NCBI RefSeq assembly: GCF_947632095.1
Contig: NZ_CANROA010000001.1
Coordinates: forward strand, 178,847-242,846
Length of the DNA stretch: 64,000 nucleotides
Reading direction: 5' to 3'
Source: an uncultured Microbacterium sp.
Lineage (GTDB): Bacteria; Actinomycetota; Actinomycetes; Actinomycetales; Microbacteriaceae
Numbering within the stretch: position 1 is the first letter of the stretch; every line of letters starts with the position of its first letter. Shown here piece after piece: positions 27,307 to 31,624 of the stretch. The notes below the pieces were generated by a model. It ran no database searches. It was given only the letters and a program-made list of their open reading frames with translations, and was not told where the DNA came from. The position numbers and the translations under genes were made by a program.

Positions 27307-28476
27307 TCAACGCCCGTTCAGAGTTCCCGAGGCCCGCGCGTAGGCATCCACGATGACCGCGAGCACCGCATCCACGTCGGCATCACTGGAGGTGCGACCG
27401 AATGTGAACCGCAGGACGCTTCGCGCATCGTGCTCGCTGCGCCCCATCGCCATGACGACGTGCGACGGCTCGGCGACGCCGGCCTGGCAGGCCGACCCCG
27501 TGGATGCTGCGACACCGGCGACATCGAGGAGGAAGAGAAGGCTCTCCCCCACAGCGCCGGGAAAGAGGATATGCGCGTTGTTCGGCAGACGATCGATGGG
27601 ATCGCCGAGCAGCTCCGCCGCGGGAACCGATGCGAGGATCCCGGCGATCAACAGATCCCGCAGTGCGCCCAACCGCTGATTCTCCGTCACTCGCTCGGTT
27701 TCGGCGCACTCGAGCGCCGCGGCGAACGCCGCTGCCCCGGCGATGTCCTGGGTGCCGGCACGCAGACCCCTCTGCTGGGATCCGCCGTGCAGCAAGGGCG
27801 CCATCCGCGCCGTCCGCGCGACGATCAATGCCCCGATTCCGACGGGTGCGCCGACCTTGTGCCCGGCCAGACTCATGGCCACGAGGCCGCCTGCTGCGGG
27901 CGCATCCCCGCGCAGGTCTCGGAAGGACAGCGGCACATGCCCCAGTCCCGCAACGGCATCGAGGTGCATGGGCACCGCGGTCCGGCCCGCCGCCCGGGCG
28001 AGCGCGGCTGCGTCGTTCACCGTGCCGACCTCGTTGTTGGCGACCAGCGCCGTCGCCAGAGCGGCTCCCGGAAGCGCTGCGGCGAATGCGTCCGCGTCGA
28101 TGCGTCCGACGCTGTCGAGCCGCACCGGCACGCACTGCGCACCGTCGGCGACGAGCGCTCCGACGGTGTCCATGGTCGCGTGGTGCTCACCATCCGGGAG
28201 AACGATCGACCGGGACTTCTCCGCGCGAACGCGCCAGAGTCCTCGCAGCGCCGTGTTGATGGACTCCGTACCGCCGGATGTCAGCACGACCTCGATCGGC
28301 TCGCAGTCGAGCACTGCCGCGATGCGCTCGCGGGATTCCTCGAGCAGGCGACGCGCACGCTGACCTGCTCCATGAGTGGAGGCGGCGTTCCCCGGTTCCG
28401 TCGAGGCAGCGAGCCAGGCTTGACGCGACTCCGGGCGCAGCGGTGTCGTCGCCGCGTGATCGAGATAGAAGACCAT
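27307..28476 (-). CDS. Cysteine desulfurase (IscS/NifS-like)
   Basis: YLDHAATTPLRPE, PLP Lys in SLAGHKVGAPVG, active Cys in STGSACQAGVAEPSHV. Confidence 0.93.
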   Translation of the reverse strand: MVFYLDHAATTPLRPESRQAWLAASTEPGNAASTHGAGQRARRLLEESRERIAAVLDCEPIEVVLTSGGTESINTALRGLWRVRAEKSRSIVLPDGEHHATMDTVGALVADGAQCVPVRLDSVGRIDADAFAAALPGAALATALVANNEVGTVNDAAALARAAGRTAVPMHLDAVAGLGHVPLSFRDLRGDAPAAGGLVAMSLAGHKVGAPVGIGALIVARTARMAPLLHGGSQQRGLRAGTQDIAGAAAFAAALECAETERVTENQRLGALRDLLIAGILASVPAAELLGDPIDRLPNNAHILFPGAVGESLLFLLDVAGVAASTGSACQAGVAEPSHVVMAMGRSEHDARSVLRFTFGRTSSDADVDAVLAVIVDAYARASGTLNGR

Positions 28477-28579
28477 GTCTCAACTCTCCCCCATCACGCA
28501 CTCGTCGCGCACGTCGTTGCCGGTCGGGAGCGTTGAGGATCTCCTGCCATCGCCCCTTTCCGACAGCTAAAATCGAAGG

Positions 28580-30664
28580 GTGTCGATACGTGGGGACGAT
28601 CTCTCGACGCGGATGATCTCGATCGGCGGGCATCCGCAGCCGCACTCCGTGCTCGGACCGCACCCGGCGGCGTCCGGAACCGGTTCCCGGCGCACGGAGA
28701 TCCGCGTTCTCCGCCCTCATGCCGATGCGGTCTCGCTCGTCTTCAGCGACGGCACGACCCTCCCGCTCTCCCCTGCCGAAGACGGCCTGTGGATCGGTCA
28801 GCACGACGGCGATCCCTCCTTCTACCGTGTGCGAACGCTCCGCGACGGAAGAGCTTCGACCATCGGCGATCCCTACCGGCACGCGCCTACCCTGAGCGAA
28901 GAGGATCGGCGCCGCATCCGGAACGGGGACCGCGATCGGCTCTGGGAGGCGCTCGGCGCCAACGCGCGCCCGATCGGCACCGAGATCGGTGTCGCCTTCG
29001 CCATCTGGGCGCCCCGTGCGGAAGCCGTTCGCATCGTCGGCCCGCTCGCCGAAACCGCCGGTGCCCCGCTCGGGATGCGCCGCCTCGACCCGCAGGGAAT
29101 CTGGGAGCTGTTCGTCCCTGACGCTTCCCCGGGAACTGCCTACGCCTACGAGATCCTCACGGATGCCGGCACCTGGGTCCGTGCATCCGACCCCTTCGGC
29201 CGCCGCGCAGACGCCGCCGCCCTCACCGGATCCGTCGTCGACTTCTCGACGCACATCTGGCGCGATGGTGCCTGGATGACGAGACGCGCGGCGACTCGAG
29301 CCGTCGCCCAGCCGATGTCGGTGTACCAGCTCCACCTCGGTTCCTGGCGCGACGGCCTCGGATACGCCACGATCGCGGAACCACTGATCGAGCATGTGCT
29401 CGGCAGCGGTTTCACCCATGTCGAATTCCTTCCGTTCACCGTGCCCGCAGCGGCCGGACGTATCCGCGCGACATCGGCATACGCCCCCGATCCGCGATAC
29501 GGCACGTCCGATGAGCTCCGATCCCTCATCGACCGCCTGCACCGCGCGGGAATCGGCGTCCTCTTGGAATGGGAGCCCACCGGCATCCACCCTCTGTCGT
29601 ACGAGACCGCCATCGATTTCGACGATGCCGCGGTGCGGGCCGCCGTGACAGCGAATGCGCTCTACTGGTTCGATTCCTTCCACATCGATGGACTGCGCCT
29701 GCGCTCGATCACCGGTCTCCTCTATCTCGATCACGCCCGCGGGCCGGGCGAGTGGACGCCCAACATCCATGGCGGCCGTGAGAACCTCGCCGGCATCCGA
29801 TTCCTCCAAGACCTCAATCGCGCGGTCCACCGGAGCCATCCCGGCGCCGTGACCATCGCTGTGGAGAGCGGCCGCTTCCCCGGTGTCACCGCTGCACCCG
29901 AGCACGCCGGACTGGGTTTCACGCTCAAATGGAACGACGGCTGGGCCGAAGAGTCCCTCCGTTACATGAGGCGCACGCCCGTGGAGCGCGCCCATCACGA
30001 GGGCGAAATGACCTTCTCCTTCGTCTATGCCTTCGGAGAGAACTATCTGCTGCCGCTCGGGCACGACGAAACATCCCATCGCACGGCGAACCTGCTGACC
30101 GGACTCTCTGGGCCGGATGCTGCGAGATTCGCGGATCTGCGCGCGTTCCTCGGGCACATGTGGGGCCACCCGGGCAAGAAGCTGCTCTTCATGGGCCAGG
30201 AGTTCGGCCAGCTCGCGGAATGGACCACCGGCACCGGCTTGGAATGGGACCTGCTCGAACAGCCCCCTCACGCCGCGCTGCTGCGGTTGATCGGTCGGAT
30301 GAACGAAACCTACCGGAGCACGGCTCCGCTGTGGGAGTACGACCGCGATCGCGCACGGTTCGATCGACGCGGTGCGCCCACCTGGGATCCCGATGTCATC
30401 GCCTTCGAACGCCGTGATGCGCACGGCGGTCGTGTCCTCGTCATCAGCAACTTCGACGAGACCGAGAAGAGCCGGCTCGCACTGGACCTGCCGGTCGAAG
30501 GGATATGGGACGAGATCCTGAACACCGATGACGTCGAATACGGCGGCACCGGCAGCGGGAACGACGGATGGATCGTCAGCCGACGATCAGCTCCTGGCGA
30601 CGCGCCGCAAGCACGCATCACCCTCCCCGCACGCAGCACGCTGTGGCTGCGCTACAGGAAGTGA
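28580..30664 (+). CDS. glgB: 1,4-alpha-glucan branching enzyme (GlgB, GH13) family protein; catalytic residues appear lost
   Basis: N-terminal PHSVLGPH, ARGPGEWTPNIHGGRENLAGIRFLQDLN, GKKLLFMGQEFGQLAEW, ILNTDDVEYGGTGSGN are GlgB-like; RVDAV replaced by RLRSI and AEES by AVES. Confidence 0.88.
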   Translation: MSIRGDDLSTRMISIGGHPQPHSVLGPHPAASGTGSRRTEIRVLRPHADAVSLVFSDGTTLPLSPAEDGLWIGQHDGDPSFYRVRTLRDGRASTIGDPYRHAPTLSEEDRRRIRNGDRDRLWEALGANARPIGTEIGVAFAIWAPRAEAVRIVGPLAETAGAPLGMRRLDPQGIWELFVPDASPGTAYAYEILTDAGTWVRASDPFGRRADAAALTGSVVDFSTHIWRDGAWMTRRAATRAVAQPMSVYQLHLGSWRDGLGYATIAEPLIEHVLGSGFTHVEFLPFTVPAAAGRIRATSAYAPDPRYGTSDELRSLIDRLHRAGIGVLLEWEPTGIHPLSYETAIDFDDAAVRAAVTANALYWFDSFHIDGLRLRSITGLLYLDHARGPGEWTPNIHGGRENLAGIRFLQDLNRAVHRSHPGAVTIAVESGRFPGVTAAPEHAGLGFTLKWNDGWAEESLRYMRRTPVERAHHEGEMTFSFVYAFGENYLLPLGHDETSHRTANLLTGLSGPDAARFADLRAFLGHMWGHPGKKLLFMGQEFGQLAEWTTGTGLEWDLLEQPPHAALLRLIGRMNETYRSTAPLWEYDRDRARFDRRGAPTWDPDVIAFERRDAHGGRVLVISNFDETEKSRLALDLPVEGIWDEILNTDDVEYGGTGSGNDGWIVSRRSAPGDAPQARITLPARSTLWLRYRK

Positions 30665-30679
30665 TGCACCGGACGCTGA

Positions 30680-31624
30680 TCAGAACAACAGCGACGACAG
30701 GCGATTGCGCGCTGCCACCACCCGCGGATCGTTCGGGCCGATCAGCCCGAAAAGCTCCACGAGGCGCTCACGCACCGGCGTCCGCTCATCGGCGGGAAGA
30801 AGGCCAAAGAGGTCGAGAAGCCGCCCGAACGCGTCATCGACGTGTCCGCCGGAGATGTCGAGATCGGCGACCAAGAACTGCGCCTGGACATCGGACGGCG
30901 CCGCAGCCGCAGCGCCTCGTGCCTGCTGCAGATCGACTCCCTGCACACGGTCCAGCAGGCGCACCTGTCCGAGACCGGCGCGGGCCTCGTCGTCACGAGG
31001 GTTCTCCGCGAGGGCCTTCTCATAGGCCTGGATCGCCGTTGCGAAGTCACCGGTCTCGATCGCTGCGAACGCCTCGGCATGCAACGGAGGAAGCGGGGCC
31101 GGCTCCGACGCTCCGTCCTCGCCGGCGGTCTCGGTCGGTTCCTTCGCCCCCACCGTTCCGGTCACGCCATTCTGCGCCGCGACCTGCAAGAGCTGTTCGA
31201 CGACCTGACGGACCTGCTCCTCCGGCACAGCCCCCGTGAACATCGGCACCGGCTGACCCGCGACGAGCGCCACGACCATGGGGATCGACTGAGCGCGGAA
31301 GCTCTGCGCGAGCTGGGGGTTGGCATCGACGTCGACCTTGGCGAGCACCAGGCGTCCTGCGTGCTCGTTGACGACCTTCTCCAGCACGGGACCGAGCTGC
31401 TTGCACGGGCCGCACCATTCCGCCCAGAGGTCCACGACGATCGGGACCGTGCGCGACAGCTCGAGGATCTGACCGAACGTCGCATCGGTGACATCGACGA
31501 TGTACCCGCCGGGCTGGGCCGTCCCGGCATCCTGACCATCGGGGGCGGCTCCCGCCGCCGGACGGTTGCGCAGACTCGACAGGTCGACGGCGCCGCGAAG
31601 CGCGGCGGCAGAGATTTCAGTCAC
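30680..31624 (-). CDS. Thioredoxin-domain/TPR protein (CnoX-like co-chaperone)
   Basis: VDLWAEWCGPCKQLGPVLEKV followed by TPR region (ALAENPRDDEARAGLGQVRLL). Confidence 0.88.
   Translation of the reverse strand: MTEISAAALRGAVDLSSLRNRPAAGAAPDGQDAGTAQPGGYIVDVTDATFGQILELSRTVPIVVDLWAEWCGPCKQLGPVLEKVVNEHAGRLVLAKVDVDANPQLAQSFRAQSIPMVVALVAGQPVPMFTGAVPEEQVRQVVEQLLQVAAQNGVTGTVGAKEPTETAGEDGASEPAPLPPLHAEAFAAIETGDFATAIQAYEKALAENPRDDEARAGLGQVRLLDRVQGVDLQQARGAAAAAPSDVQAQFLVADLDISGGHVDDAFGRLLDLFGLLPADERTPVRERLVELFGLIGPNDPRVVAARNRLSSLLF

Follow-up and report, generated by a model that had tools for sequence, protein, structure and literature searches.

The glgB locus and its remnant pathway

The window, the whole 64,000-nucleotide stretch that we analysed, comes from the draft assembly of a small-genome Microbacterium relative (2.50 Mb, 107 contigs, 96% complete), whose nearest named relatives, judged by glgB, are Microbacterium. 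It carries an altered glgB gene between a cysteine desulfurase gene and a gene for a YbbN-like thioredoxin/TPR protein (Table 1). In relatives, the gene order is ligA-mnmA-cysteine desulfurase-glgX-glgE-glgB-ybbN, and the window order is identical except that glgX and glgE are missing; the window glgB is therefore the orthologue, still in place, and synteny rules out a paralogous origin. The names glgX and glgE stand for the probable GlgX-like and GlgE-like proteins recognized in relatives by reading of their sequences, which led us to reject an assignment of the two lost neighbors as glgE and treS.

Table 1. Features of the altered glgB locus and of the second altered GlgB; coordinates are those of the window unless a locus is given.
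Feature	Position	Strand	Detail	Basis
Cysteine desulfurase gene	27307..28476	-	conserved left neighbor	synteny
Position of glgX and glgE in relatives	28477..28579	.	cysteine desulfurase gene to glgB; both genes absent here	synteny
Promoter-like site CTGCCA-18-TAAAAT	28544..28573	+	0.3 expected in shuffles	consensus match
Altered glgB	28580..30664	+	GTG start, 694 aa plus stop; no internal stop; sole GlgB of the genome	
Region I	29567..29578	+	EWEP (residues 330-333) for DWVP, then 25-residue in-frame deletion	alignment
Region II	29702..29704	+	Arg375 for nucleophile Asp; RLRSI for RVDAV	alignment
Region III	29861..29863	+	Val428 for acid/base Glu; AVES for AEES	alignment
Region IV	30062..30067	+	His495-Asp496, kept	alignment
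YbbN-like thioredoxin/TPR gene	30680..31624	-	conserved right neighbor	synteny
Second altered GlgB	L129:7187-9364 (G312); L179 (G288)		region IV Asp to Glu; nucleophile and acid/base kept	

The losses appear to extend beyond the locus. Neither GlgA nor GlgC was found over its family cut-off in this 96% complete assembly, and the only GH13 gene besides glgB is an alpha-glucosidase-like gene on contig C49 that, inspected by eye, keeps its catalytic motifs. A search for glycogen phosphorylase carries little weight, since most relatives compared also show none over the cut-off. An earlier note, made from the window sequence, had suggested a noncatalytic role, such as alpha-glucan binding, regulation of a true GlgB/GlgE system, or a scaffold, and had proposed that a second, canonical glgB be sought in the same genome. 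We looked for one and found a single GlgB; with glgX and glgE missing from the locus and neither GlgA nor GlgC reaching its cut-off, the idea of a regulator of, or scaffold for, a GlgB/GlgE system is unsupported.

The recognizable promoter of which the earlier note spoke corresponds to one consensus match (Table 1). Its TAAAAT element (28568-28573) ends 6 nt before the GTG codon of the altered glgB, which predicts a leaderless-type start. An equivalent arrangement (TANNNT-6 nt-ATG) occurs at the start of glgX in 11/11 relatives (L056, L058-L060, L064, L072, L093, L099, L102, L131, and L132), in the equivalent intergenic stretch that borders the cysteine desulfurase gene, which suggests a leaderless operon promoter there. 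The window glgB may start from the old operon promoter or from a rebuilt one.

A GlgB without its catalytic pair

The reading of this gene as an intact GlgB-family ORF of 694 aa was borne out. The window protein matched the Pfam GlgB_N, CBM48, and alpha-amylase C domains in GlgB order, scored 498.7 bits against the curated GlgB profile TIGR01515 (cut-off, 463.95), and aligned over most of its length with M. tuberculosis GlgB (3k1d; E value, 4e-148). It fell below the cut-offs of the remaining GlgB equivalog models and gave no match to the PF00128 catalytic-domain model, which canonical relatives and the protein of another genus genome, G312 (see below), do match. All indels of the window glgB relative to the relative at L131 preserve the reading frame (1, 2, and 25 residues, plus a few residues close to the N terminus), and a local frameshift, sought as the cause of the divergent stretches, explains none of them.

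We aligned the protein with 3k1d and 21 canonical Microbacterium sequences, in all 21 of which DWVP, HFP, RVDAV, AEES, and SHDE are invariant. In the window protein, DWVP has become EWEP, HFP is deleted, RVDAV has become RLRSI, AEES has become AVES, SHDE has become GHDE, and SWGYQ has become R--IR. The Arg and Val codons that replace those of the catalytic pair lie exactly where the earlier note had placed them, although its statement that the whole catalytic set is lost was too strong: the nucleophile, the acid/base, and region I are gone and the region IV His-Asp pair is kept. By the residues expected of GH13_9 enzymes, then, the window protein lacks both the nucleophile Asp and the acid/base Glu and retains His-Asp, and it is very likely no longer catalytic. 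Compared with GH13_9 GlgB proteins (M. tuberculosis 3k1d and E. coli 1m7x), it has the same domain order (GlgB_N-CBM48-barrel-C domain), the same predicted fold, and an orthologous locus, but it is without the nucleophile, the acid/base, the region I motif, 25 residues, and a PF00128 match.

The structure predicted for the window protein (pLDDT, 73.9; pTM, 0.71) was closest to 3k1d (TM, 0.82/0.79). Segments with a pLDDT of <50 include residues 1-5, 207-218, 289-299, 335-344, 383-386, 396-398, 430-451, and 497-502, and most of them fall in loops of the barrel, close to what were the catalytic regions. The model of the G312 protein had a pLDDT of 75.7 and a pTM of 0.81.

Altered and lost glgB genes across the genus

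TIGR01515 gave a match over its cut-off in 361 of 369 genus genomes. At 54 related loci whose motifs we inspected, DGLRVD[AG]V was present in 54/54 and the acid/base pattern in 53/54; genomes beyond these loci were ranked by score only, so that single-residue changes there would escape notice. The one exception, the GlgB of L012, does not match the AEES pattern and has a canonical nucleophile motif. The earlier note had taken retention of RVDAV and AEES in orthologues as a sign that the window gene is a strain-specific decaying copy or an error. Orthologues do retain both, which makes the change specific to the window lineage and does not in itself demonstrate decay.

Only the window protein and those of G312 and G288 were full-length low scorers. 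Six genus genomes (L031-L036), each with an unbroken match, were considered as further altered copies and rejected because RVDAV or RVDGV and AEES are kept. The low TIGR01515 scores of G125 and G283 and of the family members G435, G492, G560, G562, G573, G680, G698, G699, G771, and G776 stem from split frames or partial matches, and such motifs as can be seen in them are canonical.

The glgB genes of G312 and G288, which are 86% identical to each other, encode GWVPARFP/DWVPAQFP, RLDAV, AED/AEN, and SHEA/SHET, respectively, at the motif positions. G312 has the same locus without glgX and glgE; neither GlgA nor GlgC reaches its cut-off in that genome, whose sole GH13 match is its own glgB. The G288 assembly is 68% complete. 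These proteins resemble the window protein in that glgB is kept with changed catalytic motifs (and, in G312, without glgX/glgE and GlgA/GlgC), but the alteration is an independent and milder event in which the nucleophile and acid/base survive and the region IV Asp is Glu. In three other congeners, G311, G362, and G100 (L174, L175, and L176), glgX-glgE-glgB has been removed cleanly and the cysteine desulfurase gene adjoins ybbN, so glgB is dispensable in the genus.

Rates of change and what they imply

Using a tree fixed from five flanking genes, we found that, in amino acids, the branch of the window glgB amounted to 0.573 of all remaining branches together, compared with 0.038-0.081 for flanking genes, a proportion ~7 to 15 times theirs. 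For G312, the glgB branch was 0.557, compared with 0.181-0.265 for flanking genes. Selection was estimated from extant sequences by pairwise and three-point counting, a cruder approach than a branch-wise codon analysis. On the window side, dN/dS was ~0.55 (below 1, with dS near saturation), compared with 0.10-0.25 for flanking genes. Between G312 and G288, the pairwise dN/dS of glgB was 0.15 (dS, 0.51; neighboring genes, 0.10-0.36), so that strong purifying selection can act on a GlgB that is both altered and orphaned.

The window side carries ~396 nonsynonymous differences, or 326 once the normal share, roughly estimated, is subtracted. With 0.030-0.0485 nonsense changes per nonsynonymous change, 9.7-19 stops would be expected without selection (Poisson, uncorrected three-point counts), and none was seen. 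Furthermore, sites invariant among canonical proteins were kept at 73/85 positions in residues 521-694 versus 198/320 elsewhere (P = 1.5e-5), or 73/85 versus 198/299 when deleted columns were left out (P = 4e-4), with the regions chosen after the table had been seen. G312 gave no such contrast between the C-terminal part and the rest (P = 0.59).

From what was observed directly (the locus, the gene losses, the residue changes, the open frame, and the rate pattern), we tentatively favor the view that selection kept this frame open after catalysis was lost, a view that concerns one genome and is in line with the earlier note's proposal of catalytic residues lost in an intact, apparently selected frame. 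We give a probability of roughly 0.55 to the window glgB being a retained pseudoenzyme under weakened but real purifying selection. The synteny, the lack of any GlgA or GlgC above its cut-off, the single other GH13 gene, the 3k1d-like predicted fold, and the parallel in G312 and G288 all argue for this reading, although the parallel is weakened by the nucleophile and acid/base that those two proteins keep. On this reading, glgX and glgE would have been lost from the locus and glgA and glgC from the genome, probably before the rest; branching activity would then no longer have been needed, and the active-site half of the barrel could have shed its catalytic residues. The protein, presumably still produced, folded, and inactive, might use its outer, better-kept domains to bind a sugar oligomer or a protein partner.

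Somewhat short of even odds, and a serious contender, is slow decay of a relic gene: hardly constrained, if at all, since the pathway was lost, it would have kept its frame open by chance in a GC-rich genome, in part because the loss of constraint is recent. Decay would fit the strong acceleration, confined to glgB among the genes compared, the occurrence of the altered form in one genome only, the fact that three congeners have cleanly lost these genes, and the known association of small genomes with an absence of glycogen metabolism through loss (PMC6686919); the fast evolution, the single genome, and the clean losses likewise weigh against a retained pseudoenzyme. Simple decay is less easily squared with ~10 to 19 expected stops and none seen, with indels that are in frame without exception, with a dN/dS of ~0.55, with retention that is uneven by domain, and with the leaderless-type start. 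Continued enzymatic activity of the protein, through a rearranged active site or a changed reaction that uses the region IV Asp and other carboxylates, seems very improbable to us: His-Asp is kept, and G312 and G288 combine an intact nucleophile and acid/base with strong selection, but the window protein is without the nucleophile, the acid/base, region I, and the loop that follows, its model is of low confidence there, and no substrate-making enzyme was found in the genome at family cut-offs. Errors of sequencing or assembly that make an ordinary glgB look altered, conceivable in a draft of 107 contigs, would have to account for hundreds of in-frame substitutions with no stop next to normal flanking genes, and we regard them as most improbable of all. 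As to whether the protein is kept for a purpose, frame, rate pattern, domain retention, and G312/G288 stand on the side of retention and the single genome, the high rate, and the clean losses on that of decay; with this form present in a single genome, present-day selection on it is not measurable.

Noncatalytic GH13 proteins are already known in plants and animals. Plant isoamylase 2 (ISA2) has replaced catalytic residues and is kept by selection (PMC12510319), and the ectodomains of rBAT and 4F2hc, heavy subunits of animal amino acid transporters, use a GH13 fold in a noncatalytic role (PMC8537225); the fold can thus be reused without catalysis. ISA2 resembles the window protein in its replaced residues but has ISA1 as an active partner and a glucan pathway that still runs, neither of which was found in the window genome, whereas rBAT and 4F2hc share with our reading only a noncatalytic GH13 fold put to an unrelated use. 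A literature search by title or abstract found no bacterial pseudo-GlgB. With two independent cases, and with other species in which the whole pathway was either lost or kept, the genus offers a natural setting in which to ask about a role of GlgB besides branching. It is a tentative and, on balance, unlikely proposition that selection has twice maintained GlgB in Microbacterium once the glycogen pathway was gone; if it holds, bacterial GlgB would have a second, nonbranching function able to outlive glycogen.

A 745-aa open frame also lies antisense to glgB (28187-30424, minus strand). Long antisense frames over glgB are present in some relatives and absent in others, as expected for GC-rich DNA.
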